From a virus: DNA of 52,438 nt. The position numbers and the translations under genes are program-made. Below, in pieces: positions 1,576 to 47,283 of this stretch (its first letter is position 1; each line of letters begins with the position of its first letter). A model generated the notes under the pieces. It was not told where the DNA came from, did not search any database, and saw nothing but the letters and a program-made list of their open reading frames with translations. Location: positions 1-52,438 of the IMG/VR virus record IMGVR_UViG_3300023179_000147, one strand, 5' to 3'.

Positions 1576-1582
1576 TAAGTAT
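1576..1582 (-). promoter_or_regulatory. candidate late-promoter motif ATACTTA before the homing endonuclease
   Basis: ATACTTA on the minus strand, reading TATACTTA with its 5' neighbour, lies in the 34-base gap between RNR and the endonuclease. If it works like the T4 late octamer (positions -13 to -6), transcription would start one base before the GTG at 1569. One of eight copies in the window. Confidence 0.45.
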
Positions 1583-1603
1583 ATGGGTTGTTCAAGATGT
1601 AAG

Positions 1604-4600
1604 TTATGAACAGCGCGAATTACCGCAATTTTTGCAGGTAAGACAACCCTCCTGATAGACGAGGCCGTCTTCTACTCCACAGGAAGCGCAAGTCTTATCT
1701 GACGCTGACTTAGTGCCATCGGGGATGTAGCTCTTCAACACTCGAGCCAGAGCCCTTGAGAAGCTGTACATATCACTATTCTTGTCCTTCTGCAACTGCT
1801 CACAGACATAGCTGACAGGAACTCCATGTCGCAGGGCAAGTGAAATCGTACGGGTCACTGCACCGTGATTGGGATTGTCGAATAGCTCGACCACATTCTT
1901 GAAGAGTAAGTGATCGTCATCTCCCACTGGGATTGAAAGATTGTATGTTGCGACTCCGTCCTTCTTGCCGTTCTTGAGAAGTGTGCCGGCCTTCGACTTC
2001 TTGGGCACCTCGACGTGTTGTGATAGTCCGCAGAAGACCTCATAAGGCTGCCCGTCCATCTTACCCACCAGGACGAGGTACGACTCTGAGCCATCGTGTC
2101 CACGCACGTTTATTCTATGAATATCACAAGGTAGTTCCTTTGGTCTCTTTGGCGCATGATTTTCTGTGATGGTCTTGGGTTGACCGTCAACTTTCGGCTC
2201 CTCTTTCTTGGGTGTATCGGCTACAAGGACTCCGCTTCGACAGCCGTCACGATAAACTGTGACGCCCTTGCAACCTGTCTCCCACCCCCTCATGTAGATG
2301 TCCTTAACAACATCGACGGTAGTAGAATTTGGAATGTTAGTCGTATTGCTGATTGAGTGGCAGATCCACTTTTGTGCCGCCGCCTGAAGATCGACCTTCT
2401 TGACCCAATCGATCTCATTCGCTGTGCCACCCGCATAGGGAGATTCATTGGCTTGTGCCTCGGTCTTGTGGTTAACATCCATCCACTTCTTGAAGGCGTG
2501 GTGGTAAACCATATATTCCTGCCACTTGTCACCGAGCTGGTCGACGAAGTCGACACGGACGCTTGGGTCATCACCGTTAACCTTCTTGCGCCTCTTGTAG
2601 AAGAGCATGAACGCAGGTTCGATGCCTGAGGTGGTTTGGGTGAGGACTGAGACCGAACCTGCAGGTGCCGTTGTGGTGAGTGCAATGTTGCGGCGACCAT
2701 ACTTGGTGTAAGCAGCAGCTAGATCCTCATCCTGAGACGTGACCTGCTGGATGAATGGATGGTCCTGTTCAGCTTTGAGATCGAAGACGGGAAATGCTCC
2801 ACGTTCCGCAGCCATCTGGACTGATGATTTATATGCGTTGACTGCCAAGGTGCGGTAGACTGTCTCCGTCATTTGAATGGATTTATCAGAACCATAGACG
2901 AAGTTCATGGCAGCCAAAGTGTCACCGAGAGCTGTGATGCCGAGGCCGGTGCGGCGGCCGTTGATTGCAGCCGTCTTGATCTTGCCCCATAGTTCGAGTT
3001 CTCCTCGCTTCACGTCATCGGGTTCAGGATCATTTTGAATCTTGGAGATAATCTTGTCGACAGCTTCCAACTCCAGATCGATGAGGTCATCCATTAGTCT
3101 CTGCGCCTTCTGCACCGCCTCGTTGTAACCCTTTTGGTCGAAGGATGCAGCAGACGTGAACGGATTATTGACGAAATTGTAGACATTGACGAGTAGGAGG
3201 CGGCAGCTGTCATACGGACTCAGGACGATTTCTCCGCAATTTTCGCTAAGTACTTGTATTTGTTCATTATTGTCTTCTTTCCATCCACCGAAGAAGAAAT
3301 TGTGAACATCATCGACTGTTCCGTTATACACGTCTTCGTGTCCATCGAGCTCAACAGATATGACGCGGTGATTGTGAAGCGAAGCCTCAGACTTCAGCTT
3401 CTTCCACGATGAGAAACCATTTTTTGTTCCTAACCTTGCAGAAACGTTGTTTGTCTTACACAGCTCTTCCCACTCACTGCGTAGTGGGTCTCTTCCGAGA
3501 TCAAATCGCAGCTTCGTATAGACATTCAGCTGATCAATTCTTTTCTTCGTACCTCTTTCTTCGTGCAGCTTCTGCAGTGTTGCTGCTCGAACAGAGTTTT
3601 TACCTGCCTTGCGATTCGCATAATAGTTTGAGCATGAATGACCGCAGAAAGAAATCTCTCTCCTGTCATACGCGAGCCAGAAGTTATTTTCACACCACTC
3701 ACACTTCTTCTCAATTTGCAACTCTTTATCCAAGATTCTCCACGTGTATCCTGACTCTTGAGCTTCGAGAGCTCGTGAAGCTGTTCGTGGATCTGCAGAT
3801 GTCAGCTCGCTTGCAATACCAAGATCATCAGAAATCTCAGCTGTGACCTGCGAGAATTTCTTGCCGCCGAGTCTAAAAGAGTTCAAAAGCCTAGGCAATG
3901 AATTTTGTGCAGCATAGTTCTCCCAGTCACCGCCGCTTGGACGACGACCCAGAGAAGAAGCGAGAGCTTTAATGTGATTCATCAGTTCTTCATTGCTAAC
4001 ATCGTATGCTCTTGGATTATTTTCCCCCGAGACGGATTGCGACATCTTTGCGGAGTATGCGGATAACCTCGCAGGATCTGCTTTGATCTTAAAGATGGGG
4101 TTTTTCTCGCCTCTCATCATAGAAGCATGTAGTTCCTGATGGGCTTTAAATTCCATACACTTCAAATTTTGAAGACGATTATCTTTTGAGTTAAAGTTAA
4201 CATGGTGGATGACATGCCCAGAAGGCACAGCGCCATTATGAAACTCCCAAATCAGCCTGTGCTCGGAGCGAGAGCCTGTGCTGTTTTCGATCGTCACATA
4301 GTGATTTGGATTATTAGTTCTGATAGTTGGGCTTATTTCTACGAGGGTACGCTCAGTGCGCTTTGAGATCATCAACTGATCTCCTGGTTGTAGATCCTGC
4401 ACTGTCTTCCGTGTTCCGTCACGAAGTATCATCGTGTGGTTGCCGGTCGCCTTGAAAGTGTGGCCTCCTTCGATCGTGACTTTGTAGATGGGCATCTTCT
4501 CGCCAGTGCGACGCGGGTTCCTCATGGTCTTTACAACGATCCTACCCGTGTCATTGTCGTGAGCATAGACTGGCACGTCCAAGCCAGCAGCAGCTAGGTC

Positions 4601-5530
4601 GCCGATAGAAACGTAGCCGCGGCCGTCGGCAACAGCAATCTGCGTATCATACGCAAGACACGGATTCGTCGAGACTGACTTAAACGCCTCATAGCATTCC
4701 GTCGGAGTGCGCTTCTTGACGGTATCCCAGAAGAGAAGTCCGGGCTCAGCAGATGCCCATGCCGCCTCAATGATCTCATGCCACAGCTGTTTTGCGTCGA
4801 CCCAATCCTCCACAGTGTGCTTCGCATCCTTTTGAACTGGGAAGCGCAAGTGAACCTTGCCGCCGTCCTTCACTGCCTGCATGAATTCGTCCGACAGCTT
4901 GATAGAGATGTTAGCGCCGGTGACCTTCTTGAGGTCACGCTTGATGTTAACAAAGGTGCGGATCTCGGGGTGGTGAACATCAATGGTCAGCATCAATGCA
5001 CCCCTTCTTCCACCCTGTGCCACCTCGCGGCAGGTGTTGGAGAACCTCTCCATGAAGACACCGATGCCGTCGGTGGTACGTGCTGCATTGGCCGTATAGA
5101 GGCCCTTGGGCCGGATGGTGGAGATGTCGAAGCCGACACCGCCGCGGCGCTTCATGATCTGTGCCTGTTCCTGGTCCGCCTTGAGAATCCCAGCATAAGA
5201 GTCATAGGGTGACTGGATGACGAAGCAGTTGGAGAGGGATTGGTACTGGTAGGGGTTACCGATTGCAGACATCGGAGAACCTTGCGGGACGATGCTCCAG
5301 TCGTTGAGATAACCAAAGATCTCATCTTCCGACATCGGATTGGGATATTTTGCCTCAATACGGGCAAACTCCTTGGCAAGGCGCCTGTGCATGTCTGCCG
5401 GAGTCATCTCTAGCAAATTGCCCTGTAGGTCCTTGAGTGCGTACTTGTCGACAAAGACTGAAGCGGCAAGCTCGTCTCCGCCGAAGTACTCTAGTGATGC
5501 TGCGTATGACTCTTCTCTTGTGTGTGTCAT
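1604..5530 (-). CDS. nrdJ: class II (adenosylcobalamin-dependent) ribonucleotide reductase, intein-interrupted
   Basis: Reduces ribonucleotides to deoxyribonucleotides for phage DNA synthesis. The precursor has 1,308 residues. After removal of a 474-residue intein (291-764) the mature enzyme would have about 834. Extein landmarks are SNCFV (C102), the active-site loop NP|CGEIVLSPYDSCRLL interrupted by the intein, SISNTTNIPNSTTV, and GCKGVTVYRDGCRSG. The C-terminus holds a TSCPD-type domain and a cysteine-rich ribbon (CASCG, CLTCKNCG). Such tails mark B12-dependent class II enzymes rather than NrdA/NrdB pairs, and no small subunit gene lies nearby. The ATG at 5530 is preceded by CGGAG. The helicase gene ends 22 bases upstream. 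The enzyme would need host or scavenged cobalamin. Confidence 0.95.
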   Translation of the reverse strand: MTHTREESYAASLEYFGGDELAASVFVDKYALKDLQGNLLEMTPADMHRRLAKEFARIEAKYPNPMSEDEIFGYLNDWSIVPQGSPMSAIGNPYQYQSLSNCFVIQSPYDSYAGILKADQEQAQIMKRRGGVGFDISTIRPKGLYTANAARTTDGIGVFMERFSNTCREVAQGGRRGALMLTIDVHHPEIRTFVNIKRDLKKVTGANISIKLSDEFMQAVKDGGKVHLRFPVQKDAKHTVEDWVDAKQLWHEIIEAAWASAEPGLLFWDTVKKRTPTECYEAFKSVSTNPCLAYDTQIAVADGRGYVSIGDLAAAGLDVPVYAHDNDTGRIVVKTMRNPRRTGEKMPIYKVTIEGGHTFKATGNHTMILRDGTRKTVQDLQPGDQLMISKRTERTLVEISPTIRTNNPNHYVTIENSTGSRSEHRLIWEFHNGAVPSGHVIHHVNFNSKDNRLQNLKCMEFKAHQELHASMMRGEKNPIFKIKADPARLSAYSAKMSQSVSGENNPRAYDVSNEELMNHIKALASSLGRRPSGGDWENYAAQNSLPRLLNSFRLGGKKFSQVTAEISDDLGIASELTSADPRTASRALEAQESGYTWRILDKELQIEKKCEWCENNFWLAYDRREISFCGHSCSNYYANRKAGKNSVRAATLQKLHEERGTKKRIDQLNVYTKLRFDLGRDPLRSEWEELCKTNNVSARLGTKNGFSSWKKLKSEASLHNHRVISVELDGHEDVYNGTVDDVHNFFFGGWKEDNNEQIQVLSENCGEIVLSPYDSCRLLLVNVYNFVNNPFTSAASFDQKGYNEAVQKAQRLMDDLIDLELEAVDKIISKIQNDPEPDDVKRGELELWGKIKTAAINGRRTGLGITALGDTLAAMNFVYGSDKSIQMTETVYRTLAVNAYKSSVQMAAERGAFPVFDLKAEQDHPFIQQVTSQDEDLAAAYTKYGRRNIALTTTAPAGSVSVLTQTTSGIEPAFMLFYKRRKKVNGDDPSVRVDFVDQLGDKWQEYMVYHHAFKKWMDVNHKTEAQANESPYAGGTANEIDWVKKVDLQAAAQKWICHSISNTTNIPNSTTVDVVKDIYMRGWETGCKGVTVYRDGCRSGVLVADTPKKEEPKVDGQPKTITENHAPKRPKELPCDIHRINVRGHDGSESYLVLVGKMDGQPYEVFCGLSQHVEVPKKSKAGTLLKNGKKDGVATYNLSIPVGDDDHLLFKNVVELFDNPNHGAVTRTISLALRHGVPVSYVCEQLQKDKNSDMYSFSRALARVLKSYIPDGTKSASDKTCASCGVEDGLVYQEGCLTCKNCGNSRCS
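3239..4660 (-). other. intein with HNH endonuclease domain inside the RNR
   Basis: Residues 291-764 of the RNR product form a 474-residue self-splicing intein. Block A is CLAYDTQIAV. A block-B-like ATGNHTMIL supplies the TxxH motif. Block F is DVYNGTVDDVHNFFFGG. The C-terminus reads LSEN, followed by +1 Cys. The penultimate residue is Glu rather than the usual His. In between is an HNH_3-like segment (HRLIWEFHNGAVPSGHVIHH, then NRLQNL, about 424-456). A zinc ribbon C610-x2-C613-x15-C629-x3-C633 follows. The insertion splits the active-site motif NP|CGE so that the catalytic Cys is the +1 residue. Boundaries follow from extein conservation and were checked against the codons at 4658-4660 and 3236-3241. 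Confidence 0.93.
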
Positions 5531-5552
5531 TCAGTAGACTCCGGTTTGCTAA

Positions 5553-6992
5553 CTATACAACGTCGGCGTGACGTTCAGATTTCCCGTTGGGCTTTGTATT
5601 AAACTCTTGCTTTAATTCCCGCCACTTTGCCCGAAGCGCCTGTCTCTGTGCCTCATCTTCAGTGACAGCTGTTGATCCGACATCAGGCACATCATTCTCT
5701 CCCACAATCTCAAACTTGCTTCGGGCGGTGTTCATCTTGAGGGGGAACACGAGACCGTCTCGACCGGCTCGGTTCTTCGCAATGTAGAGACGACCCCAGC
5801 CGCTTGCTTTCTCGTGGGGTCGACGAGACACCGACACGATGAGGTCACAGATCATCGCCTTACCGTAGGCCTCGGACATGTTGGTCATGTCGATGACCTC
5901 AGCATTGGCACCCTCCTTGTTGGACTGCGACGCCGTCCAGATCGGAACGCCGAGCTCCATTGCGAGACCTCGAAGTTCCTCGTACACCAGCTTGAGTTCA
6001 TGACGAAGAGAGTCAAACTGCCTCGTCGACCTCATGATGTCGGCATAGTCGATGATGATGATGTCTGGCTTGAATCCCTTTAGGTCGAGACGTTCAATGT
6101 GGGACTTGATGGTGTATATAGAGGCCGTATTTGTCGGATATTCTTTGATGAACAACCGACCAAGTCGATTGTCATCGTAGAACTTCTTGACCTCCTCCTT
6201 ACGGTCCATCACCTCGTTGGAATCGATGTCGCACAGGTTGGAGTCGTAACGGATGCCGACCGCTGTCTCCGACAACTCGAAGGTATAGTGGAGGACGTTC
6301 TTACCTTCGCGGAGGGCGTTGGCACCGATCATGGTGAGCCAATGCGATTTTCCTGAACCGCTAGCGCCAACGACGCAGAGGAGCTCGCCCTTACCGCTGC
6401 CGCCGTTGAGGATCTCCTTCTTATCGAGCTCTGGGATTCGAGTTGGAATTGTGTCGCGCTTAAGAAGAGTAAAGCGCGCATCCATCTCGTTGAAGAAGTC
6501 GTGGCCGACCGAAGGAGCAGTTCCAACCTGGACCGCCTTCTTGATGGTCTCCACGATGGACTCATACTTGTTAGCTTGCATCTGATCGACTGCAGATTCG
6601 AGTGCCTTCTTGAGAGCCTGCTTTCGACAGAATTCAAGCGACTTCTCCTTGACGTATTCTAGATCTCCTGGATCTGGGTTTGCCTTCATGCGTTGAAGAT
6701 AGTCAACGATCTGATCCCGAAGAATGATATCGGTCCCAGTCTTCAGCTCGTCACGGATGATAGTGACGAGGAGCTGGAGTGTGGGAAACACCTTGTATTT
6801 CTTAGAATACGCAAAGTATCGGTCCGCAAGAAACTTCAGATAGTTCACCTCGAAGTATGAGATGTCAATGACTTCCATCATCTGCTCGGCATACTTGTGA
6901 TCAACCAAGAGTGCTTGTCCAAGCTTCTCCTGAAAAGACTTGCCAAACTGGCTAAAGGATACCCCTGTCTTCTGTTCAATCTCTTGAGTCAT
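5553..6992 (-). CDS. replicative DNA helicase, DnaB/gp41-type
   Basis: A 479-residue ring helicase that would unwind DNA at the phage fork. The N-terminal helical domain covers about residues 20-150. The RecA-like motor follows, with Walker A GASGSGKS (209-216), Walker B IIIIDYADIM (311-320), a sensor-like WTASQSNKEG, and SRRPHEKASGWGRLYIAKNR, which resembles the DnaB H4/arginine-finger region. Length matches T4 gp41 (475). The ATG at 6992 overlaps the TGA of the exonuclease gene (ATGA) and has GGAG five bases upstream, so the two genes are translationally coupled. No primase domain is fused to it and none is seen in this window. Confidence 0.95.
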   Translation of the reverse strand: MTQEIEQKTGVSFSQFGKSFQEKLGQALLVDHKYAEQMMEVIDISYFEVNYLKFLADRYFAYSKKYKVFPTLQLLVTIIRDELKTGTDIILRDQIVDYLQRMKANPDPGDLEYVKEKSLEFCRKQALKKALESAVDQMQANKYESIVETIKKAVQVGTAPSVGHDFFNEMDARFTLLKRDTIPTRIPELDKKEILNGGSGKGELLCVVGASGSGKSHWLTMIGANALREGKNVLHYTFELSETAVGIRYDSNLCDIDSNEVMDRKEEVKKFYDDNRLGRLFIKEYPTNTASIYTIKSHIERLDLKGFKPDIIIIDYADIMRSTRQFDSLRHELKLVYEELRGLAMELGVPIWTASQSNKEGANAEVIDMTNMSEAYGKAMICDLIVSVSRRPHEKASGWGRLYIAKNRAGRDGLVFPLKMNTARSKFEIVGENDVPDVGSTAVTEDEAQRQALRAKWRELKQEFNTKPNGKSERHADVV

Positions 6993-7966
6993 TTTTGCTC
7001 CGAAGGCTTACGTGAACCTTCAATACTTGATAGATCGTAGAAGAATCCCTCGATATCAAAGTCGGGGATCCCCTCCTTCACTAACTGTCTAATCAACCCC
7101 ATCCTATTGACTGCGGGGGCGAATGTATCTACTGCATAATCGATACGTTTTGCTTGGTCAGGCGAGAGCATGCTGCCGTCGAGGTGAATCAGCTGCCAAT
7201 TTCTGCGGACCAGCTCTGCGTCCTCGTACACCCTCTTGTACGCTGCGGCATCAGAGGCATGACTCGCGGCGTAATCGATCACTTCCTGTAGGATGACCGT
7301 TGAATCACCCCCCAGCATGGGGAACCTCTTCGCGACGGTCTTATAACCCAGCCCCTTGACACCAGGGATATTGTCTGAATCATCGCCGCAGAGACATTTG
7401 GCAATTGCAAAATTATGCGACTTGACCCTAAACTCCTCAAACAGATCTTCGTCAGTAACAAACTTCTTTCTATAGAGAGAATAGATCCTCACCCCAGCTC
7501 CGAGGAGTTGGTACATGTCCTTGTCCGCAGAGACGATGATCTTGTCCCCCTCATTGCGCAGCGGACCCTTGCAGAGATGGGCGATGATGTCATCGCCTTC
7601 GCAGTCTGACACATATACCTGACACACGGGAACGTTTTTCAGCATTGACAACAGGGTGACGAGCTGATGGTGCTTGTTCTCTTCAGTGTCAGGTATATCG
7701 TCTTCATAGAACCGATTCAGGCGCCCGGGACGACGGTGCATCTTGTATTCAGGATAGATCTTGCGTCTGCGTTGTGAACCTCCACCCTCCCATGCGATAT
7801 AGACTCGATAGGGCTGGAACTCACGACACAGACGCTGCAGAGACTTCAAGAACCCGATGCAACCTCCCATCTGGTATCCATGGGAACTGACGGTCGGGAA
7901 CGCTGAGTATGCACGAAGATACGCATTCATGCCGTCAATTATGAAGACAGGACGATCCTGCTGCAT
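6989..7966 (-). CDS. 5'-3' exonuclease / RNase H of the FEN family
   Basis: A 325-residue member of the T4 RNase H / Pol I 5'-exonuclease family, which removes RNA primers and flaps. Metal-binding acidic residues appear at D11 (IIDGMNAY), E123/D125/D126 (CEGDDIIAHL), D148/D150 (VSADKDMYQLL) and D195/D198. The helix-3-turn-helix DNA-binding element is GDDSDNIPGVKGLGYKTVAK. Length is close to T4 Rnh (305). It would complement the family-A polymerase at 13897-15099, which lacks a 5' nuclease domain. It lies between the actin-like gene (42-base gap) and the helicase (4-base overlap). Confidence 0.94.
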   Translation of the reverse strand: MQQDRPVFIIDGMNAYLRAYSAFPTVSSHGYQMGGCIGFLKSLQRLCREFQPYRVYIAWEGGGSQRRRKIYPEYKMHRRPGRLNRFYEDDIPDTEENKHHQLVTLLSMLKNVPVCQVYVSDCEGDDIIAHLCKGPLRNEGDKIIVSADKDMYQLLGAGVRIYSLYRKKFVTDEDLFEEFRVKSHNFAIAKCLCGDDSDNIPGVKGLGYKTVAKRFPMLGGDSTVILQEVIDYAASHASDAAAYKRVYEDAELVRRNWQLIHLDGSMLSPDQAKRIDYAVDTFAPAVNRMGLIRQLVKEGIPDFDIEGFFYDLSSIEGSRKPSEQK

Positions 7967-8008
7967 ATCTCTAATCTACCCCCAAGTGATAGGGCAGTAC
8001 AAAGTTGA

Positions 8009-31965: not shown

Positions 31966-31972
31966 TAAGTAT
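31966..31972 (-). promoter_or_regulatory. candidate late-promoter motif ATACTTA
   Basis: CATACTTA on the minus strand, 23 bases upstream of the ATG at 31942, with AGGAG between them. It lies downstream of the terminator at 32051-32076, so this gene needs its own promoter, which fits. Confidence 0.5.
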
Positions 31973-32635: not shown

Positions 32636-32642
32636 TAAGTAT
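32636..32642 (-). promoter_or_regulatory. candidate late-promoter motif ATACTTA before the tail-tube gene
   Basis: CATACTTA on the minus strand, 24 bases upstream of the tail-tube ATG (32611), with AGGAG in the short leader. It drives what must be a strongly expressed late gene, which is why I read the motif as a late promoter. Confidence 0.55.
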
Positions 32643-36100: not shown

Positions 36101-36235
36101 TGGGACAAACGCAGGACCTTTCATCGAAGTTCCAACAATACCTGCAGGAACACCGGAAGGTTGCTGTGTTACTGGACTAGAGATGTCAATCTCCCTTGCT
36201 GTCACTCCTGCGCTTCCAAATTTTAGTTGTGCCAT
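33113..36235 (-). CDS. tail sheath protein, paralogue 1
   Basis: A 1,040-residue contractile-sheath subunit, longer than T4 gp18 (659) because of large inserted surface domains. The N-terminus reads REIDISSPVTQQPSGVPAGI and GPAFVPITVGNLSDW. The conserved C-terminal sheath domain contains GGIVVWGQKTLQV, SALDRVNVRRLLIDIRRQV and IRGKIFVQPTKSIEFVSLDF. These elements match the second sheath gene at 36275 nearly residue for residue, while the centre differs. The frame ends just before a stem-loop. It is translated from a transcript shared with the upstream sheath gene or from a weak promoter in the 39-base gap. Confidence 0.95.
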   Translation of the reverse strand: MAQLKFGSAGVTAREIDISSPVTQQPSGVPAGIVGTSMKGPAFVPITVGNLSDWYSKFGTTDGKKFGPLAVIEWLRNAQSVTYLRVLGVGDGRKRDATGFVNSAGFKVGSELPNTDKSRGDLGAILPNALANSNGQPGRTYFLGCFMSESAGSTYFSEAGLQGPGSVTPGVSDALPIVRGVLMAPSGVLISLSSSVPGSDSSAPLANAVGNTLYATKGGTVGSVVLSNNGSPKQEFTLFLNGHKGLDVKYPNVITASFDPTSNNYFAKTLNTDPLKSEVAGHYLYANWDIHPSLATVTGTNLIPDSLNSAIVGNAGAEPVAFVVSSSVPYDTSTSTVPNYESFKDRFGHAVSPWMVSQKFGGRPQDLFRLHTLDDGSSASTNFKVAIENITPSTDPLNKYGSFNVVLRDWTDRDLDKKNLPNEVFNGVNLDPSSDRYIAKVIGDIYAYYDFDREEDSQKLVVEGNYPNRSNYVRVEVHPDVVNGFVDPSALPMGFRGISHLVTSGSAPLPTVGGVNASALLDADTLKRSLTPPLPFRRKVTLSTEWTTKEQVEPKFYWGAQFEHPDSLLKKNNSIVPNNSLKSFAKYFPNFAVGAAHFITGSNSGQPDTAALGVIDSDRFCNNFFSLENVQVVTGSTASGGFADPTKWVKAVYARNGNPGSVDLSGVASDGKGDENKVRGLKVEDLKVSANRQFAKFSCIMQGGFDGVNIFNNDEASLSDNAAHADMNAAGRLLQDGPTVRTYLKALDVMANVVNLDIQLLAIPGIREPIVTDTATLAVMDRYDALYIMDIEQHDENDNPVTDDTMLPSVTTTVSQFNNRSVDSSFAAAYFPDVLYRDPIGVNIQAPPSVLVLSALSLNDAVGHPWFAPAGFTRGALPDVALEPRVRLSQSDMDTLYDSSINPIVAFPGAARSGTNPRGGIVVWGQKTLQVAASALDRVNVRRLLIDIRRQVRDIAQTILFEPNREATLARFSAAVTPRLQRIQQLSGLERFKVVIDSSTTTQDDVLNNTIRGKIFVQPTKSIEFVSLDFVVANNLTQVQ

Positions 36236-36274
36236 TTAACTCTCCGATTTTCTAACTATTCAGCTTGAAGCGTT

Positions 36275-39200
36275 TCAAACGAACTGAACACCACTATTTG
36301 TAATGACAAAGTCGATGGCGATATACTCAACGACTCTCGTCGGCACTACGACGATTCTTCCGTTGAGCTTGTTGAGGTCTGTGTCCTCTTGAGTGTTGTT
36401 CGACTCATTGCAGACCACCTGGAACGCCTCAATTCCTGCTTGTGCCTGGATGAGACCAAGCTGGAACGATGCGTCTGCAACAAACTTGTTGCGAACTGCG
36501 GGTGTGTTCTGCTCAAAGACAATCCTCTGTGCAATGCCGATGATGATACGCTTGATCTCTAGCATCAAGCGGCGGACGTTGACACGGTCGAGAGCTGACT
36601 TATTGACCTTCAGCGTCTTCTGTCCGTATATCACGAATCCCAGACGAGGGAACGACGCAATCGGATTGATGCGCGACTCGTACAAGCGATCACGGTCAGG
36701 AACGTTGAGTCTAACCGCGACGTTAGACACGAAGTCGAGGGCCGCGCGATTGAAACCGGCTGGTGCGAACCAAGGGTACGATACACGGTCGTTGAAAGCA
36801 AGGGCGCCGAGTGCAGCGACCGATGCGGGCACCTTTACCCTGCGACGATTAGTTGCATCATCGATGAATATGTCGGGGTAATAAACTGCTGCGTAGTCGT
36901 TGTCGATCGATCTTGTGTCAAAGTCTGCAGCTGTGAGGTTGATGTTTGGCTTGGCAGATGAATCATCGTACAGGCGAGATCCACCGTCGTCGTACGATGG
37001 AACATCCATCACATACACTGCAAGGCCATAATCTCGAACTTTCTTCATCGTTAGGTCAGTGATGTATGGTTCGCGAATGCCAGGGATTGTAAGTATGTTG
37101 TTGTTTGCCTCGAGCGGGTTTGTCATAACATCGACTGCTGCAAGATACGATGCAACACCATTGTTAGAGACGTCCTCGCCAGAAGGATTACTCAAGAATC
37201 CTGCTGGGACGAACCCAGGTGAAGCTCCTCCATTGACGTCGAACGATACAGACTTATCATTGAGTCGGCGAGCATCACGGTTTAGGAAGTTAGTTCCATC
37301 AAACCCGCCGTACATGAAGTTAGTGAATTTCATGTATGAAGAAAAGCGGTTGAATTGAGAGGGCGTGGCAGTCGACAGAAGCGTGGCAAAAGTTATTCTA
37401 TTGCTGCCGTTGTCGTTCCACGTGTAATTTGTGTTATCGAGTTTAGCATTCCTGATATAGGCAGCCTCTTTCATGTGTGTATTGACTGATGCAGTGATAT
37501 CAGCAACGCTACCGTTCCCAAGAACTACCTTAGATAATGTAAACTTGTTGTTATTGACGACGTCTGCGTTAGACCCAGTGACAAGAGCGTCGAGCTTGTG
37601 AATGCCAACAAATCTAGTCAAACCCTCAAGGAGATTGTTCTTCTCACTACTCACGTTAGCGTTTCTAACGTCAGTAGAATACGGGTCAGAAGTCACGCTG
37701 CTTCTTTCAAACATAGCACCCCAGTAATATGCTGAATTAGCGTGCTCAGACGGACCAGCAGCTCCTGCAAGTCCTGACGTGGCAGTCTCGCCGCGAGTTA
37801 CCTTGTATCTAAGCGGAAGCGGGGGCATGAAAGACCCAGTCAAAGCTAGTGCACCGGCTGCAAGCTGGCCAGCAAGTCTAGACGCAGATGGCGACAAGAC
37901 GTCTGTGTCGGCAAGCATCGAATTGACGTTGAGCGCTTCAGGTCCGCGGAAACCGAATGGCAAAGATTCTGCGGGAATTGCTCCGGTCTCGATGGCAGGA
38001 TTCATGATGACCCTGACATACGTAGATTGGTTGTTGTACTTGCCCGTGGCGACGATTCTCTTCTCCGAGGGGTTGACTGCGTCGAAGCTATAGAAAACCT
38101 TGCGGTCGCCAATCTTCTTGGCAATGTAATTCTCTGAGCTTGGGTCGAGGCTGCAATTTGAGAACTGCTCTATGACCTTGGGCGTCGTGTCTGTGTCATT
38201 CCAGTCACGAATCTGCACGTTGAACGTTCCGTGCTTATTTGAGTCGTTGGTTGAAGCCTTGACGTTACTAATCGAGATCTTATAGAGTGAATTTGCATAC
38301 TCACCGTCGTCGATTGACTCAAACTTGAAGAGATCATATTCCGTGGTGCCGAAAGGCTGAGAGATAAAATACGATGACGCAGGAGCCTTGAAACGTGTAT
38401 CGTAAGACCCAAAGACCTCACGGAAGAACCGGTTTGGGTTACCGTCATTAGAGTGATTAGACGATCCGCTAAGTATGGCAACTGGGTAGGATGAACTTAC
38501 CCAGGCAACGTTCACGTCAACTGCAAAATCAGCGTGGAGATAGTGTTGCTCTTGGACAAACTTATCAGGATCTGTGTTGAGAACCTTACCAAAGTAATCT
38601 TTGCTTGATGGATCGAACGAGGCGGTAAAGACCTTGATACCAGGAACAGAGTCTGTCGTGCAGAAAGAAGATCCAAGCGAAGAAGAAACTAGAAGCTTGA
38701 ACTTTCCGAAACTGTCAACTGTTGTGCTATCATTGACGGCTGAGCCGACCGTAGAAGGGACCTGTGTCGACAAGGGTAGAACCATCACCCTTGAAGTCTT
38801 GGGAGTCATTACGAGACCCCTTACTAAATTAACAGTGTCACTGGTGACCGAATCATTGTCAACAAACATTGGCATGCCGAAAGCAGCATTGGTCGATAAA
38901 GCGTGCTTGGCTGTCAAGAACTGAACGACACCTGAATCCCTTTTATCTGAGACACCAGCGCTTGCCGATCCCGACAGGATAAACCCTGCGTTCTTGACTG
39001 TCCCGTAATCAGCAGTGTTAGAGATGTCTGCATCAGAAGCATTAGCACCAGCGCCAAGAACTCTCATGTATGTGAGAGCTGAGCGATGCTTCAAGAACTC
39101 ATTCACTGCGTAAGGACCGAAGTGTTTTGGATCAAGATTACCAAACTTCTGAACAAATTCGTTCATATTTGCAACGGTAACGGGAACGAAAGCGGGACCC

Positions 39201-39316
39201 TTGTTAGCCGTGCCAATGACTGCAGCGGGTACGCCGACGGGGCCTGTAGCTGCAGGAGCGGAAAGGTCAATCTCACGCTCGTAAAAATTGGGCGACTTGA
39301 ATGTCTGCTCAGCCAT
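36275..39316 (-). CDS. tail sheath protein, paralogue 2
   Basis: A 1,013-residue second sheath subunit. It keeps the N-terminal REIDLSAPAATGPVGVPAAV and GPAFVPVTVANMNEF and the C-terminal GQKTLKVNKSALDRVNVRRL, IAQRIVFEQN and LNGRIVVVPTRVVEYIAIDF, but its central region is unlike paralogue 1. AAGGAGATCAGATA precedes the ATG. The pair may assemble as a mixed sheath, or one copy may form a specialised part of it. Duplication followed by divergence is the simplest explanation. Confidence 0.95.
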   Translation of the reverse strand: MAEQTFKSPNFYEREIDLSAPAATGPVGVPAAVIGTANKGPAFVPVTVANMNEFVQKFGNLDPKHFGPYAVNEFLKHRSALTYMRVLGAGANASDADISNTADYGTVKNAGFILSGSASAGVSDKRDSGVVQFLTAKHALSTNAAFGMPMFVDNDSVTSDTVNLVRGLVMTPKTSRVMVLPLSTQVPSTVGSAVNDSTTVDSFGKFKLLVSSSLGSSFCTTDSVPGIKVFTASFDPSSKDYFGKVLNTDPDKFVQEQHYLHADFAVDVNVAWVSSSYPVAILSGSSNHSNDGNPNRFFREVFGSYDTRFKAPASSYFISQPFGTTEYDLFKFESIDDGEYANSLYKISISNVKASTNDSNKHGTFNVQIRDWNDTDTTPKVIEQFSNCSLDPSSENYIAKKIGDRKVFYSFDAVNPSEKRIVATGKYNNQSTYVRVIMNPAIETGAIPAESLPFGFRGPEALNVNSMLADTDVLSPSASRLAGQLAAGALALTGSFMPPLPLRYKVTRGETATSGLAGAAGPSEHANSAYYWGAMFERSSVTSDPYSTDVRNANVSSEKNNLLEGLTRFVGIHKLDALVTGSNADVVNNNKFTLSKVVLGNGSVADITASVNTHMKEAAYIRNAKLDNTNYTWNDNGSNRITFATLLSTATPSQFNRFSSYMKFTNFMYGGFDGTNFLNRDARRLNDKSVSFDVNGGASPGFVPAGFLSNPSGEDVSNNGVASYLAAVDVMTNPLEANNNILTIPGIREPYITDLTMKKVRDYGLAVYVMDVPSYDDGGSRLYDDSSAKPNINLTAADFDTRSIDNDYAAVYYPDIFIDDATNRRRVKVPASVAALGALAFNDRVSYPWFAPAGFNRAALDFVSNVAVRLNVPDRDRLYESRINPIASFPRLGFVIYGQKTLKVNKSALDRVNVRRLMLEIKRIIIGIAQRIVFEQNTPAVRNKFVADASFQLGLIQAQAGIEAFQVVCNESNNTQEDTDLNKLNGRIVVVPTRVVEYIAIDFVITNSGVQFV

Positions 39317-39374
39317 TATCTGATCTCCTTGAATCTTAGATTCTTGACATAACTATCATGGTCAAGGTCAGAAT

Positions 39375-41344: not shown

Positions 41345-42523
41345 TCATCCGATCGTGATCGCAGTGCCTCGAGGCATTGGCACAAATCTTAGCTGTTTGT
41401 TGAGTGATTCTGCAGCAAGAGCGTCAGCCTCTAATAATTTCTGATGTGTCAGCTGTGCCAAAAACTCCTTCATCTGTGTCTGTAATTTATCTTTCTCTTC
41501 TTTGCCAGAGCTTACTAGACTCTCACCGTTAAGCTGGAGATCAGCATTTGGGATCGGAATCGACTGAAACTTAGATCTAATCAGGCCTAGTAACTCCTTG
41601 CACAGAGCCAACGTGTACTGTCTTATCCATTGACGACCGGGTTGGTTTATTGTCGAATACGGGATATTGTCTAGGGGCATGTTGTTCGGGCCTGAGACAC
41701 CGTATATCGTTTGATCACCATACGCTGTTGGATTGAGAACGTCCTGTGGGGGTAACACTTTGCAGTACAAATTACCAACCTGTAGATCAGTTACGGGTAT
41801 CGGGTAGATTCTCAATTTGCTACCCATGATCTCATAAGAGTATTGTGACCTGCGAACCCTAAATGCAGTCTCAAGCATACCACGACGCAAGACGTCTTCA
41901 AAGACGGGCAGAACGTAAAAAATAGTTGAATTGACGTACGACTCGTAATTGAAGTTAGTAGCCAAGAAGTTTGTCATATTGGAAGCATTGAGGAGGAAGT
42001 GTTGAGCAGCGAGGGGCTCGACGTGAAAGAGTTCAACAACCCTCATTTTACCCTTGAATCCTTCAGGCAGGTTGTCGTAGATGGGTGTGCCCGTTTGAGT
42101 ATCTAAGAGATCAGTGTATATGTTATAGTCCTGCTGACCGCCCACAAGGTTGAAATACCCCCACACTGGGTCGCTTGACCCTCCCACAAATGCGTTCGTG
42201 GCATAGGGTTCAGCCATGCGGAGAAGATACTCTAGTGATCTCTGGGCATAGCGGTTGGTGAGGTTAGTCGATCCCGTTGCTAGCCCGAGGACGTTGGTCA
42301 ATTCAGATACAATCTTTGTCTCATGGACAAGACGTGCATATTCACAAGATGCCTCTTCGAAGCAGGCCCAAATCTCCTTCTTCGTCAATTCGACCGAAAG
42401 TACATCGTCTCCTAACTTGCGCTTGACAAACGTGACCATTGAGTCAGCGTCTGTTTGAAATTCAGCATCGGAATCAAAAAATCCAAATGGTGTGGGGCTG
42501 ATGGTGGCGTTAAAGCTAGTCAT
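41345..42523 (-). CDS. neck protein, gp13-like
   Basis: A 392-residue protein resembling T4 gp13 and head-tail connector proteins: an N-terminal helical part (VTFVKRKLGDDVLSVELTKK), then a beta-rich middle with GGQQDYNIYTDL, FRVRRSQYSYEIMGSKLRIY and NLYCKVLPPQD, and a helical C-terminus. It would join the portal to the tail. TAGGGTAGG precedes the ATG, and an ATACTTA motif lies upstream at 42542, so it starts a neck-sheath transcription unit. Confidence 0.8.
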   Translation of the reverse strand: MTSFNATISPTPFGFFDSDAEFQTDADSMVTFVKRKLGDDVLSVELTKKEIWACFEEASCEYARLVHETKIVSELTNVLGLATGSTNLTNRYAQRSLEYLLRMAEPYATNAFVGGSSDPVWGYFNLVGGQQDYNIYTDLLDTQTGTPIYDNLPEGFKGKMRVVELFHVEPLAAQHFLLNASNMTNFLATNFNYESYVNSTIFYVLPVFEDVLRRGMLETAFRVRRSQYSYEIMGSKLRIYPIPVTDLQVGNLYCKVLPPQDVLNPTAYGDQTIYGVSGPNNMPLDNIPYSTINQPGRQWIRQYTLALCKELLGLIRSKFQSIPIPNADLQLNGESLVSSGKEEKDKLQTQMKEFLAQLTHQKLLEADALAAESLNKQLRFVPMPRGTAITIG

Positions 42524-42541: not shown

Positions 42542-42548
42542 TAAGTAT
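42542..42548 (-). promoter_or_regulatory. candidate late-promoter motif ATACTTA before the neck genes
   Basis: CATACTTA on the minus strand in the 45-base gap upstream of the gp13-like gene; the motif ends 18 bases before the ATG at 42523. Confidence 0.5.
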
Positions 42549-42894: not shown

Positions 42895-43458
42895 TTAGCG
42901 CTTGCCGAACTTCTGTCTTAGGGTCTTGCGACGAAGAGTGTCAGGTGCATCGACTTTACTCTCATATAGAGTCTTGAGAGAAGGAGCCGAGTGGTCGTCG
43001 AGGCCGACCTCCGGAGAAGTCTCTACTTCGGGTTTCTTCTGCTCAAATTTTATCGTCTGGGCTGAAAACCTCTGTGGTAAAGCAACAGGTGTAGCAGTCA
43101 CCTTGATCTGCTGTTTCTCGACCCTGGGTGTTACCTTGATAGCCTCTGCAACGACTGACAAGGTCTTCTTAAAGTTAATCTGGAATTGAAGGGGAGAGAA
43201 GTAGCGATTGTCAATCAACACCTCAACCCGTGCCTGGTACATCCCCTCCTGGAGACGTCCACCCATCTTAGGTAGTGTGAACTGCACGACCTCATCCTCA
43301 CCCGTGCCGTAGCCGTTGAACATATAGGAGACATCCTTGCCCTCGCAGACAAGACGGACCTTGGCGGGCGAGGCGGCCATGCCCTCCATCTTGATCTTAA
43401 AGGCCAGATCGTTGGATTCTTCGATGTCGAGGTCTAGGGTTTCAACTAACGGTTCCAT
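42895..43458 (-). CDS. beta-rich structural protein upstream of the neck genes
   Basis: 187 residues from the ATG at 43458. A TTG nine codons earlier would overlap the previous stop. The N-terminal 105 residues look like a beta-sandwich (NDLAFKIKMEGMAASPAKVR, DVSYMFNGYGTGEDEVVQFT, YQARVEVLIDNRYFSPLQFQ). The rest is a Lys/Pro-rich linker and a basic C-terminal tail. I place it with head- or neck-associated proteins by position only. The candidate late-promoter motif at 43465-43471 ends six bases before the ATG. Confidence 0.72.
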   Translation of the reverse strand: MEPLVETLDLDIEESNDLAFKIKMEGMAASPAKVRLVCEGKDVSYMFNGYGTGEDEVVQFTLPKMGGRLQEGMYQARVEVLIDNRYFSPLQFQINFKKTLSVVAEAIKVTPRVEKQQIKVTATPVALPQRFSAQTIKFEQKKPEVETSPEVGLDDHSAPSLKTLYESKVDAPDTLRRKTLRQKFGKR

Positions 43459-43464
43459 CTCTTC

Positions 43465-43471
43465 TAAGTAT
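43465..43471 (-). promoter_or_regulatory. candidate late-promoter motif ATACTTA, nearly leaderless
   Basis: GATACTTA on the minus strand, followed by GAAGAG and then ATG (43458). T4-like geometry would put the first transcribed base one base before the ATG. It lies within the TTG-started version of the same gene, so it is the weakest of the eight copies. Confidence 0.35.
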
Positions 43472-43481
43472 CTCCCATCTG

Positions 43482-43826
43482 TCAACGTAGCTTAATTCTC
43501 TTAACAGAGATCTTGATGTCCTGTGAGATGTCTCTGACCCTGGCAGAGATGGGCTGCACTGTGATCTTCCTGTAGGTCGGCGACCTCTCAACGTGGGCCT
43601 TGACAAATCCCTGTATCTTGACCGGTGGCGGTGAATCGTTGACACGGATGAGCTTCGCCCAGACAAGGACCTCCTGGAGCCTCTCGAGCGCCCGCTTGGT
43701 GCCCGATTGGCCTGCCCGATATATGCGCTGGATCTCAACGAGCAGCCGCTTGCCGAATCCACCGGTGACAAGACCCTGGTTGCCGGGCGTACCCTTACCC
43801 AGACCCCTCGTCGTCATTCGGGGCAA
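43482..43826 (-). CDS. small basic phage protein (possible head-tail joining)
   Basis: A 114-residue basic protein with Gly/Arg-rich N-terminus (TTRGLGKGTPG) and a beta-patterned C-terminus (VQPISARVRDISQDIKISVK). A TTG start at 43826 is favoured: AGGGTG lies seven bases upstream, whereas the ATG at 43817 has no usable site. It starts two bases after the stop of the gene at 43829. Not assigned to a family. Confidence 0.65.
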   Translation of the reverse strand: MPRMTTRGLGKGTPGNQGLVTGGFGKRLLVEIQRIYRAGQSGTKRALERLQEVLVWAKLIRVNDSPPPVKIQGFVKAHVERSPTYRKITVQPISARVRDISQDIKISVKRIKLR

Positions 43827-43828
43827 GG

Positions 43829-44383: not shown

Positions 44384-45019
44384 TCACTTCTTTGATTTCT
44401 TGCGCTTTCTATGTGAACGGAGCGCTTGCTCTATCTTCTTCTTCTTTTCGGGCGGAGAAACAGCCCAGTCCCATAAAACATTCTTAGAGATTGAATCGAG
44501 GTTTTCTTCTAGTGCTTGGACTCTCTTCTCGAGTAGAGCAATCAGAGCATCGGACGGATCTTCAAGTTCAACGGACAGGGTAAGAGCAAGGTCGAGCAGT
44601 TCGTCAAAGCGACCAGAACTATACGCATCAGACGCTTTCTTGTAAGCCTCAGAGAGTTCAGGATCACCTCCTGTCTTATCAGGGTGGGTCTTGAATGCGA
44701 TTTGTTTCCACAGGGACCGCATCTCGTCGGGTGGAGGGTCTGCACTGGATATTTCTTCTGGTGCTTGCTCGGTATCAGAGTGAGATCCTGTCTGGTCAGG
44801 CCCCTCGCCGCCTTGATCGATTATGATAGTCTTATGATCACTGCTCTGTTCGATATTATTTTCTTCCTGCTCTTCAGACTCTTCCCAATAGCTCTTCTCA
44901 AACTGTCTTTCATGCTCCTTTAATTCTTCACTCCTCTCCTCAATCTCGAGTCGAAGATAGCTTGACTTGTGGAGCAGTCTCTTGAGCTTCTTTTTTGCGG
45001 CAATTTTCGATGCGCTCAT
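44384..45019 (-). CDS. J-domain (DnaJ-like) co-chaperone
   Basis: A 211-residue protein with a J-domain at about 99-150. The HPD signature is at 112-114 in LWKQIAFKTHPDKTGGDPEL, followed by EAYKKASDAYSSGRFDELLD. It is flanked by a Glu/Gln-rich coiled N-terminal half and a coiled C-terminal part ending in a Lys/Arg-rich tail. J-domains stimulate Hsp70 (DnaK) ATPase, so this protein may recruit host DnaK to head or tail assembly. It leads the minus-strand structural operon. ATATTTA (45024-45030) lies four bases before the ATG, too close to fit the promoter geometry proposed for ATACTTA. Confidence 0.88.
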   Translation of the reverse strand: MSASKIAAKKKLKRLLHKSSYLRLEIEERSEELKEHERQFEKSYWEESEEQEENNIEQSSDHKTIIIDQGGEGPDQTGSHSDTEQAPEEISSADPPPDEMRSLWKQIAFKTHPDKTGGDPELSEAYKKASDAYSSGRFDELLDLALTLSVELEDPSDALIALLEKRVQALEENLDSISKNVLWDWAVSPPEKKKKIEQALRSHRKRKKSKK

Positions 45020-45085
45020 GCGTTAAATATAGTCGAAAAATTTCAAAAAATGACATAGCGTTGTTTGAAAAAATCGTAGATGATT

Positions 45086-45092
45086 ATACTTA
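45086..45092 (+). promoter_or_regulatory. candidate promoter TATACTTA before the large fibre gene
   Basis: TATACTTA at 45085-45092 on the plus strand. TATACT with TTGTTT 18 bases upstream (45061-45066) could alternatively serve as a sigma70 promoter. Leader length to the ATG at 45159 is about 60 bases. Confidence 0.55.
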
Positions 45093-45099
45093 AAAGTTG

Positions 45100-45130
45100 A
45101 TGTGGATCCACATAGTGTGGGACGCATCCC
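45100..45130 (+). other. structured 5' leader of the fibre gene
   Basis: A perfect 14-base palindrome, ATGTGGATCCACAT, occupies 45100-45113, followed by GGGA-CGCA-TCCC (45119-45130). Two small hairpins would sit at the 5' end of the fibre mRNA, just after the proposed start of transcription. They could protect the mRNA. Confidence 0.45.
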
Positions 45131-45158
45131 TTTCAACTCTCGAGAAAAGGAAGACAAC

Positions 45159-47204
45159 ATGTCTAGAACACACATTCAACAGTCACAGATTAGCGGTTCG
45201 TTAGTAGTTGATATCAACGAAAGCGCTTCGCTAGTGCAGGCTCCCGGCTCCCTAGTCGGCGACCTAAACATACTCCGCACGCAGATCAAGGGAATCCTCG
45301 GTGAGGATCACTTCTACAGTGCAAGATCAGGCCAGGATCTTAAATTGATCTACGCAGCAATGCACGCCTCCGGCGCAGACGCCGACTTCCAGGGCAGCAT
45401 CTCGACGGTCAGCAGCGCATCAGTTGGCAACTTCCTCGTTGTCCAGACTGGTGGCATGCAGGTGACCGGCTCGGCCGACCTCTCCGACACGCTCCATGTC
45501 GCAGGCAATGCATCTTTTGATGGCAATGTCACACTCGGCGATGCAGCCGGCGACACTCTTACCTTCAATGCCAAGGCAGCCTCTGAACTCGACATGGACA
45601 GCCACAAGGTTGTCGGTCTTGCACAGGCATCAGCTGCAGGCGATGCTCTCGCCTGGGGCTATGACGCATCGGTCTCTGACCTAGTCGTCACGGCAGGCGA
45701 CTTCACTGTTGATGCTTCGGGCAACACCGTCGTCGGCGGCACGCTCGGCGTCGACGGCGTCGCAGACTTCTCTGCAGACGTCTACGCAGCTGCTGCTCTA
45801 TATGTCAGCGGTGCATCCACTTTCGCAGCCGCCGCGGACTTCAACGGTGGCATCACTGCCGACCAGATCAAGATCGACGGCGACGTGGCTGGGCACCTCT
45901 ACTTCGTAGATCCCTCCACGGGCGAGATCCAGGACTCCGACGACCTCTACTACAAGGCTGGTGGTCTCTACGTCACGGGCTCTGCTGAGATCAGCAACGG
46001 CCTCAGCGTCCTCGCAGGCGGTCTCACCGTCGGCGGCGATCGCCTCGAGGTGACGGGTTCATTAGCAATCTCGGGTGTCGCTGATTTCGGCGGCAAGGTC
46101 TACATTGCTAGCGACCTCGGCGTCTCGGGCTCACTAACAGTTGCGAATGATATCAAGATCAGCGGCGACGTGCCACAACACCTCTACCTCGTCGGCGCCT
46201 CGGGTGAGATCCAGGACGAAACAAAGCTCTGGTTCGACGGCTCGAAGCTCTACGTCACGGGTTCTGCTGAGCTCAGCAGCAATCTCGAGGTGAAGGGCGG
46301 CTCAGTCACCCTCTCAAACGGCGTGTCGATGGCTTCATCGGCAGCTAACAAGCTCGTCATCACAGCAACTGACGTGGTTGAAATTTCCCACGACCTCAAG
46401 GTCGACAACAACCTCGAGGCAGTGAGCGGCTCGTTCACGGGTGATGTCACTGTCTCTGGCGACCTCTACGTCCAGGGTGCAATGACCTACATCGAAACCG
46501 AGAATCTCAAGGTCAAGGATGCAATCATCCACCTCGCCACCGGTTCGAACGCCGCCGCTTCCCGTGGTATCGTTCTCCATGGTGGATCAGGTTCTGGTGG
46601 CGACATCGCAGTCGGTGCAAAGATCAACGGCTACGACTTCGTCTTTGCCAAGAATGTGAACGACGCAGATGTCGACGCAGGCAACTCCGAGATCTTCTCG
46701 ACAGCTGACCTCGCCGGCGCTTGGTTGAACAACATTCAACTCGGTGTCGCAGAGGGTGCACTCAGCGGTTCACTCGCTGTCGACGGCTCGAACGTGAAGC
46801 TCTCGGCAGAAGCTGACCTCAAGCTCAGCGCACACGGCGATACAGTGAGCCTAATGACGGACGCTGATTACCAGGCAGTGTTCGGCGTTGGCGCTTGGGC
46901 CGCAGGTGAGACCCTTGTGGGCGCACTTGAGACCCTCTACCAGGGAGCATCGGGCGGTGCAAAGAAGGGCAACCTCAGCTCGAGCAACATCACGGGCGAC
47001 ACCCTAGACTTCTCAAGCGTCGGTGTCCTAGGTACATCTAATCAGAAGTTTGTTGACGTATACCTCAACGGTGTCCTCCTCGCCTACGGCGTGGACGTCA
47101 ACAACCTCGCTGGTACGGGTGATAAGATTGACCTCGATCACGGCCTCGTCACAGGCCTCACGTCTGACGACGTGATCACGGTCATCCTCCGCGGCGCTGC
47201 CTGA
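45159..47204 (+). CDS. large repeat-built fibre protein
   Basis: 681 residues from the ATG at 45159 (AAAAGGAAG upstream). The frame opens earlier, at 45102. After an N-terminal anchor-like part, the protein is a beta-helix-type repeat array of the form G-x-LxVxGxA with SGSL, TGSAE and VSGD. One pair of long repeats, GHLYFVDPSTGEIQDSDDLY and QHLYLVGASGEIQDETKLW, each continues into GLYVTGSAEIS or KLYVTGSAELS. The C-terminus (FVDVYLNGVLLAYGVD, DVITVILRG) is a typical small beta-domain found at fibre tips. Codons are unusually rich in C-ending forms compared with both neighbours. Probably a tail or head fibre; target unknown. Confidence 0.87.
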   Translation: MSRTHIQQSQISGSLVVDINESASLVQAPGSLVGDLNILRTQIKGILGEDHFYSARSGQDLKLIYAAMHASGADADFQGSISTVSSASVGNFLVVQTGGMQVTGSADLSDTLHVAGNASFDGNVTLGDAAGDTLTFNAKAASELDMDSHKVVGLAQASAAGDALAWGYDASVSDLVVTAGDFTVDASGNTVVGGTLGVDGVADFSADVYAAAALYVSGASTFAAAADFNGGITADQIKIDGDVAGHLYFVDPSTGEIQDSDDLYYKAGGLYVTGSAEISNGLSVLAGGLTVGGDRLEVTGSLAISGVADFGGKVYIASDLGVSGSLTVANDIKISGDVPQHLYLVGASGEIQDETKLWFDGSKLYVTGSAELSSNLEVKGGSVTLSNGVSMASSAANKLVITATDVVEISHDLKVDNNLEAVSGSFTGDVTVSGDLYVQGAMTYIETENLKVKDAIIHLATGSNAAASRGIVLHGGSGSGGDIAVGAKINGYDFVFAKNVNDADVDAGNSEIFSTADLAGAWLNNIQLGVAEGALSGSLAVDGSNVKLSAEADLKLSAHGDTVSLMTDADYQAVFGVGAWAAGETLVGALETLYQGASGGAKKGNLSSSNITGDTLDFSSVGVLGTSNQKFVDVYLNGVLLAYGVDVNNLAGTGDKIDLDHGLVTGLTSDDVITVILRGAA

Positions 47205-47239
47205 ACGGCATGACGGTCACAGCTCAGCTGTGAAGTAGT

Positions 47240-47269
47240 GAAGGGCCCCTTTTGGGGCCCTTCCTCTTT
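47240..47269 (+). terminator. strong rho-independent terminator after the fibre gene
   Basis: GAAGGGCCCC (47240-47249) and GGGGCCCTTC (47254-47263) form a perfect 10-bp GC-rich stem with a TTTT loop, followed by CTCTTT. It ends the fibre transcript. Only a few bases further on, ATACTTA restarts transcription. Confidence 0.92.
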
Positions 47270-47276
47270 AAGCGCT

Positions 47277-47283
47277 ATACTTA
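47277..47283 (+). promoter_or_regulatory. candidate late-promoter motif ATACTTA after the terminator
   Basis: TATACTTA on the plus strand directly after the fibre terminator and 19 bases before the ATG at 47303, with ACGGAG between. A new start is needed here because of the terminator. Confidence 0.6.

Follow-up and report, generated by a model that had tools for sequence, protein, structure and literature searches.

The 52,438-base stretch of DNA analyzed here (the window) raises the question of why one heptamer, ATACTTA, recurs in front of its genes, and whether it acts as a phage late promoter of the T4 type. The window derives, as a fragment, from a myovirus related to T4. Its tail and replication gene set includes two sheath genes, a tail tube, a neck adaptor, and a baseplate hub, and it further encodes UvsX, a DnaB-type helicase, a gp32-like protein, and a ribonucleotide reductase. 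Positions 1-25000 gave no megablast match to named phages. We conclude that ATANTTA, of which ATACTTA is one form, is very probably the -10-like late promoter element in one clade of jumbo myoviruses related to T4, read by a sigma factor of the gp55 family.

ATACTTA precedes genes of the window

ATACTTA occurs 10 times in the whole window, for 2.4 expected and a maximum of 6 in 100 dinucleotide shuffles; the original prediction had set the chance number in 52 kb at about six, which is too high. The coordinates and strands that it gave for eight sites were all exact (Table 1). It also held that 8 of 8 were intergenic: these eight do lie upstream of genes, but two more copies lie inside the sheath gene 36275-39316, and the proportion is really 8 of 10. 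Moreover, three of the eight said to lie between genes or at junctions (30308, 43465, and 47277) fall within the longest ORFs (30305-30712, 42895-43485, and 47252-47869, respectively) and are upstream given the ATG starts at 30320, 43458, and 47303. The first two starts are the choice of the gene caller, which gives weight to Shine-Dalgarno sequences, and the third is a manual shift from 47252; an upstream count of eight presumes all three in place of the longest ORFs. Two split gene calls were merged by hand into ORF 544-1569. As claimed, all eight sites aim at a gene start no more than about 70 bases away (5 to 66 nt downstream), and every plus-strand transcription unit has an element, since one heads each of the two plus-strand runs and, in the second run, each of the two genes is preceded by one.

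In the non-coding DNA up to 100 nt 5' of genes, ATACTTA was counted 8 times in the sense direction and once in reverse, and dinucleotide shuffles of the upstream non-coding stretches (2000) gave a mean of 0.22 and a maximum of 3. Of the 140 words that can be made by permuting its letters, the heptamer ranked first, the runners-up reaching 2 each. The ATATTTA variants reported upstream of the genes starting at 530 and 45019 were present, and three ATAGTTA sites absent from the original prediction were found in front of both sheath genes and the reductase gene, all on the minus strand.

Table 1. Candidate promoter elements of the window, with the distance from each to the start codon and the fraction of orthologues carrying ATANTTA
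Element	Position (strand)	Distance (nt), start	Gene	Orthologues	Remarks
ATATTTA	545-551 (minus)	14, ATG	57-530		within 3' end of 544-1569; weaker candidate
ATACTTA	1576-1582 (minus)	6, GTG	544-1569, weak homing-endonuclease match	0/1	leaderless type, with GTG start
ATAGTTA	5550-5556 (minus)	19, ATG	1604-5530, ribonucleotide reductase	1/4	overlaps end of the gene upstream
GGTAGATT	7973-7980 (minus)	6, ATG 7966	6989-7966, exonuclease		contrasting host-like early promoter type, defined in relatives
ATACTTA	30308-30314 (plus)	5, ATG	30320-30712	4/9	leaderless type
ATACTTA	31966-31972 (minus)	23, ATG	31634-31942		Shine-Dalgarno-like AGGAG in between; no orthologue with aligned start in the conservation test
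ATACTTA	32636-32642 (minus)	24, ATG	32120-32611, tail tube	9/10
ATAGTTA	36253-36259 (minus)	17, ATG	33113-36235, tail sheath	27/27
ATACTTA	37090-37096 (minus)		within 36275-39316, sheath		sense strand; treated as chance
ATACTTA	38470-38476 (minus)		within 36275-39316, sheath		sense strand; treated as chance
ATAGTTA	39350-39356 (minus)	33, ATG	36275-39316, tail sheath	25/26
ATACTTA	42542-42548 (minus)	18, ATG	41345-42523, head-tail adaptor-like	13/17
ATACTTA	43465-43471 (minus)	6, ATG 43458	42895-43458	3/9	leaderless type; gaps of 5, 6, and 7 in the three orthologues with the element
ATATTTA	45024-45030 (minus)	4, ATG	44384-45019	0/1
ATACTTA	45086-45092 (plus)	66, ATG	45159-47204	0/2
ATACTTA	47277-47283 (plus)	19, ATG 47303	start moved from 47252	1/1

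Conservation and strand sense in relatives

ATACTTA was the top enriched upstream 7-mer in the window and in the relatives G001 (309 kb), G002, and G016; it was the second-ranking word in G011 and shared fourth place in G012. The upstream words of G013 included the A/T and G forms of the element, and in G015 other words outranked ATANTTA. A strand-aware scan of relatives, proposed originally as a check, found the word enriched and sense-biased upstream: pooling eight relatives (the 7-mer table excluded the redundant G008 and G009), ATACTTA was seen 34 times in sense, once in antisense, and 5 times in coding DNA, for 0.26 expected upstream. The sister words ATAGTTA, ATAATTA, and ATATTTA were counted 21, 17, and 11 times, respectively. 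When the four forms were summed, six high-GC relatives gave 90 sense and 10 antisense sites; the bias was modest in G013 (52 and 22). As a positive control, 80 kb of T4 went through the same scan, which put ATAAATA, the core of the known late promoter, in first place. In 50 kb each of Syn1 and Moby, ATAAATA, with 3 and 1 upstream hits, did not come out on top, so the scan misses some late promoters.

Conservation was followed in the 60 nt upstream of orthologues with aligned starts and distinct upstream DNA. ATANTTA was kept by 83 of 105 orthologues of the motif-bearing window genes (antisense 2) and found at 6 of 121 orthologues of the other window genes (antisense 3); gene 45159-47204 was sorted with the latter because its element, 66 nt off, lies beyond the 60 nt examined. 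Sheath orthologues from IMG/VR carried ATANTTA in all 28 usable loci, several of them near-identical, with its first base about 40-51 nt 5' of the start codon (4 of 32 loci were excluded because the match begins at the contig edge), and the window sheath gene with ATAGTTA at 39350-39356 fits this pattern. A separate set of 53 gp55-bearing loci, obtained from 69 of 80 considered after removal of shared DNA, gave a weaker signal (24 sense vs 7 antisense); taken one by one, 17 were sense-rich, 1 was reverse, and 35 were ties, and other words led.

Full form of the element

The full element appears to be ATANTTA, wider than ATACTTA. In a substitution scan, T-11, A-10, T-7, and A-6 were fixed, T-8 was strongly preferred, and -9 was free, being mostly C or G in high-GC phages and more often A or T elsewhere. 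Position -12 is A, with C tolerated in high-GC members (48 sense, 10 antisense). The A at both -9 and -8 of the T4 consensus TATAAATA was not found, as -8 is T here and -9 is free. The absence of a fixed -35 box, on which the likeness to T4 had been based, holds in the jumbo clade, where no upstream position of 210 aligned sites exceeded 0.18 bit. In Flavobacterium phage immuto (49 sites), a -35 element is possible because several upstream positions are above this value. The distance from element to start codon ranged from 0 to 58 nt in the aligned sites.

Genes carrying the element and a second upstream word

Most motif genes assignable to a named family encode structural proteins. Among the 55 motif genes of G001, G011, and G012, we found four sheath, two tube, and two neck adaptor genes, one baseplate wedge gene, and one reductase gene, the remainder having no named family. 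The reductase and homing-endonuclease genes that carry the element are not obviously late genes.

A second upstream word of the TANNNT type, GGTAGRNT, marks a nearly disjoint gene set: of 1168 genes, 57 had ATANTTA alone, 52 had GGTAGRNT alone, and one had both. The 52 GGTAGRNT genes include those for nucleases, enzymes acting on nucleotides or NAD, tRNA nucleotidyltransferase, RNA ligase, and GroEL; none of the 25 families listed (of 32) is that of a virion protein. The gene-class sets omit genes shorter than 240 nt, genes crossing the 20 kb borders (2 of the 57 late ones), and the dual-motif gene. GGTAGRNT looks like a host-type early promoter, and TAATATA, the top word of the 53 gp55 loci, looks like a low-GC form of this early box. 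The late and early timing of the two sets is presumptive, as read from gene class.

Start-codon spacing

We looked for ATG downstream of 190 ATA[CG]TTA sites on 13 contigs, independently of gene calls. ATG followed at a gap of 5 in 29 cases and of 6 in 14, against 3 at gap 4 and 5 at gap 7, and the reverse complement used as control gave 1 at gap 5 and 0 at gap 6. Since the T4 late element ends at -6, leaving 5 nt to the start (excerpt of PMC1524935), ATGs at gaps of 5-6 would fall on the predicted start site or beside it. Their frequency in the window and in high-GC relatives therefore predicts that some genes have leaderless late mRNAs. GGTAGRNT behaves similarly, with ATG at gap 6 after 77 of 287 sites (control 2). 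There was no peak at gaps 5-6 in T4, immuto, or Microcystis phage Mel-JY01, and that of the 53 gp55 loci was not clear (7 and 9 vs 4 and 3). A Shine-Dalgarno sequence was present at 1 of 40 genes with gaps of 5-6, and between element and start at 77 of 109 with gaps of 14-36, a figure biased by the gene caller, which scores Shine-Dalgarno sequences.

A gp55-type sigma factor in relatives

A search for T4 gp55-like factors, also suggested originally, succeeded in relatives, which encode a divergent gp55, but found none in the window fragment. The T4 gp55 family, phrog_234, matched G001 (3e-9) and G002 (6e-7), and it gave no match in the 9 other of the 11 records, which are fragments, or in the 52 kb window. 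IMG/VR holds 396 stretches encoding a gp55 relative, of which the best 80 were retrieved. From these 80 loci, 51 were hand-picked, and 47 gp55 and 42 neighbour sequences were aligned; the phrog_234 profile recognized all 47 at E <= 0.01 (best 6e-8). The phage of the window presumably encodes the same sigma factor. Searching GTDB contigs with the gp55 profile, as a clue to the host, yielded no match, and the phrog_12791 profile gave none either.

The G001 protein has 270 residues, 85 more than T4 gp55 (185 aa), and is extended at both its N and C termini. An AlphaFold model of the gp55 homologue (mean pLDDT 75) was submitted to a VIA structure comparison, in which T4 gp55 (7d7c_F) ranked third with Z 10.7 over 125 residues and an rmsd of 6.1, in a range (Z below about 13) where helical proteins can match by chance; the other matches listed were mostly sigma factors. 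Foldseek returned nothing at E <= 0.001 with this model, and hhalign aligned the sigma profile to single T4 gp55 in the same register but weakly (E 0.076). The 25 Pfam families listed, of 27, included no sigma domain, and a sigma-70 region 4, considered for the C-terminal extension, was likewise absent from them; the one hint of such a region is the alignment of the model with longer sigma factors. A search restricted to multisubunit RNA polymerases (PF00562) was negative in 8 of 8 records.

In T4 gp55, A-12 is contacted by Y97, A-9 by N13/H95, and A-8 by T99 (excerpt of PMC7892883). In the clade alignment, all 47 sequences keep Y97, as Y129, and have N131 in place of T99. The residue at the T99 position is T in T4 and Syn1, S in Moby and Mel-JY01, N in the jumbo clade, and Q in immuto. 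Its covariation with the -8 base across groups is suggestive but not perfect, as Mel-JY01 has S yet T at -8, and Moby likewise has S, with an unsettled -8 base. Loss of H95 as the cause of the free -9 position proved not to be diagnostic, as F at this position also occurs in Syn1 and Moby.

The gp55 neighbour and the sliding clamp

A gene of about 120 residues lies beside gp55 and is similar, by eye, in 45 of 51 loci. Its position would suit a gp33-like coactivator, but its identification as gp33 drew no support from family, fold, or hhalign comparisons. Sigma factors and gp33 orthologues of one jumbo-phage group have already been described (excerpt of PMC7824862). The gp45 clamp (phrog_223) was found in 0 of 11 records and the beta clamp (PF00712) in 0 of 8. 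Matches to gp44-like ATPase reached about 1e-13 in G001, G011, and G012 and were weaker elsewhere.

Proposed mechanism and alternatives

The enrichment of the element, its strand sense, its conservation in orthologues, and the gp55-type genes of relatives support the original reading as a T4-like late promoter. So do the lack of a -35 signal in the 210 sites, the negative PF00562 search, and the ATG peak at gaps of 5-6, which agrees with T4 start spacing. A phage-encoded gp55-family sigma factor would join the host RNA polymerase and read ATANTTA at about -12 to -6, and this element, without a -35 box, would turn on the tail, neck, and other late genes. Set against the T4 element (A-12 T A A-9 A-8 T A), the clade keeps the base at -12, has no fixed base at -9, and bears T in place of A at -8. 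RNA would start about 6 nt past the element: an ATG located there would yield a leaderless late mRNA, and an ATG farther off would leave a short leader in which a Shine-Dalgarno sequence is usually present. A more detailed version, which we consider doubtful, is a re-tuned T4-type late transcription in which changed gp55 pockets read ATANTTA, ATANTTA and GGTAGRNT promoters of high-GC members launch leaderless mRNAs owing to an ATG set exactly at the start, and the extra C-terminal helices of the sigma factor possibly replace flap binding by gp33, so that late transcription would need no gp45-type clamp.

An element that is A/T-rich and sits just 5' of genes could also be a -10 box of the sigma-70 type in ordinary host-read promoters, and TATAAT is indeed enriched upstream in the pooled relatives (20 vs 1.2 expected). 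Yet TANTTA lacks the final T of TANNNT, a separate word of the TANNNT type, GGTAGRNT, occupies different genes with other functions, and the jumbo clade shows no -35 signal, all of which makes host reading improbable. A role in translation, in place of the Shine-Dalgarno sequence, would account for the gene class in which the element lies 5-6 nt before ATG and a Shine-Dalgarno sequence is rare. This seems still less probable, as many sites are farther away with a Shine-Dalgarno sequence in between (in proportions inflated by the caller bias noted above), the sheath elements are mostly 33-34 nt off, and most genes have no element at all.

The wide variation in distance to the start codon, which reaches 66 nt at 45086, would suit an operator bound by a phage activator or repressor rather than a box contacted by sigma. 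However, the element is non-palindromic and sense-biased, it matches the T4 late element at -12, -11, -10, -7, and -6, and the ATG peak lies at start-site spacing, so that an operator is the least credible of these explanations and very improbable. We therefore retain ATANTTA as a late promoter element.

Comparison with known late promoters

The T4 late promoter TATAAATA, read by gp55, is likewise a short -10-like element of structural genes without a -35 box (excerpts of PMC1524935 and PMC7892883). T4 and the clade share A-12, T-11, A-10, T-7, and A-6, a gp55-family sigma factor and, presumably, use of the host polymerase. Unlike T4, the clade has T instead of A at -8, a degenerate -9, a non-conserved -13, and frequent ATGs at the predicted start. 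A published departure from the T4 consensus is the Aeh1 late element, CTAAATA (excerpt of PMC1524935): its C at -12 resembles that tolerated in high-GC jumbo members, whereas its A at -8 and -9 does not. Late promoters of phiKZ and AR9, which are also jumbo phages with late words of their own (TATG and AACA-6N-TA/G), are read by phage multisubunit RNA polymerases (excerpt of PMC5312081), unlike here, where the PF00562 search was negative.

Immuto and Mel-JY01, scanned over 100 kb each, have upstream words ATATTTA/ATAATTA and ATATTTA, respectively, and, as in the jumbo clade, a gp55-like gene (28-29% identity) followed by a small gene. They differ from the clade by A or T at -9 and by few ATGs at gaps of 5 and 6 (2 and 3 at 304 sites), and their small neighbour has no tie to the jumbo-clade neighbour that is detectable by tblastn.

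T4-type late promoters and variants of them are thus already known, and the ATANTTA variant appears new: a literature search, made mostly outside subscription journals, found no published report of ATANTTA as a late promoter. It would map the promoters of a jumbo phage group whose members are mostly uncultured, and late genes of the group could be proposed from sequence alone. With one base flipped (-8) and one released (-9), the clade would also constitute a natural experiment on changes of promoter specificity in a minimal sigma factor. The placement of ATG makes a sharp and testable prediction, namely leaderless late and early phage mRNAs.

Finally, an N-terminal peptide was compared with late promoters by Fisher's test. 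No association was seen in G001 (p = 0.18), G013 (0.051), and G016 (1.0), and a tie to late promoters is suggested in G011 (0.013), G012 (0.014), and G015 (0.005).

Additional promoter-like word and gene features

In addition to ATANTTA, the candidate late promoter element, a second promoter-like word, GGTAGRNT, lies upstream of non-structural genes in three relatives of the phage (G001, G011 and G012). An exact 6-nt gap separating it from the ATG is frequent, and, judged from sequence, such sites are probably leaderless early promoters. Each gene of the adjoining tail-sheath pair has an ATANTTA of its own; G001 likewise carries two such genes side by side, their products being 1015 and 1004 residues long.

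In 45 of 51 loci hand-picked from the best 80 of 396 IMG/VR stretches, the gene directly 3' of that for gp55, the putative late sigma factor, encodes a conserved helical protein with a DRQNAY motif, about 120 residues long and matching no known family; neighbour similarity was judged by eye. An MKITxxxLRxxIREE-like peptide opens many otherwise dissimilar proteins, one in the window and many in G001 (10 vs 0.8 expected), G011 (13 vs 0.75) and a further relative, G013 (20 vs 0.5). This N-terminus is reminiscent of capsid-targeting propeptides, the kind that a prohead protease cuts, and may be one.

The ribonucleotide reductase ORF probably contains an intein or similar insert, since reductase matches near both its ends flank HNH matches within positions 400-640. 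Finally, ARAGORN gives the tag peptide of the window tmRNA as ANDNGLSPLALAA.

Positions of the features in the window and in one gp55 locus (L076)
Feature	Source	Position	Strand	Remark
Possible homing endonuclease gene	window	544-1569		next after reductase ORF
Ribonucleotide reductase ORF	window	1604-5530		1308 aa
GGTAGRNT-type word	window	7973-7980	minus	
Gene with MKITxxxLRxxIREE-like N-terminus	window	31634-31942		
Tail-sheath gene	window	33113-36235		about 1000 residues
Tail-sheath gene	window	36275-39316		about 1000 residues
tmRNA gene	window	50561-50934	minus	Rfam RF00023, 82 bits
gp55-adjoining gene, about 120 residues (example)	L076	10822-11196		similar genes in 44 more loci
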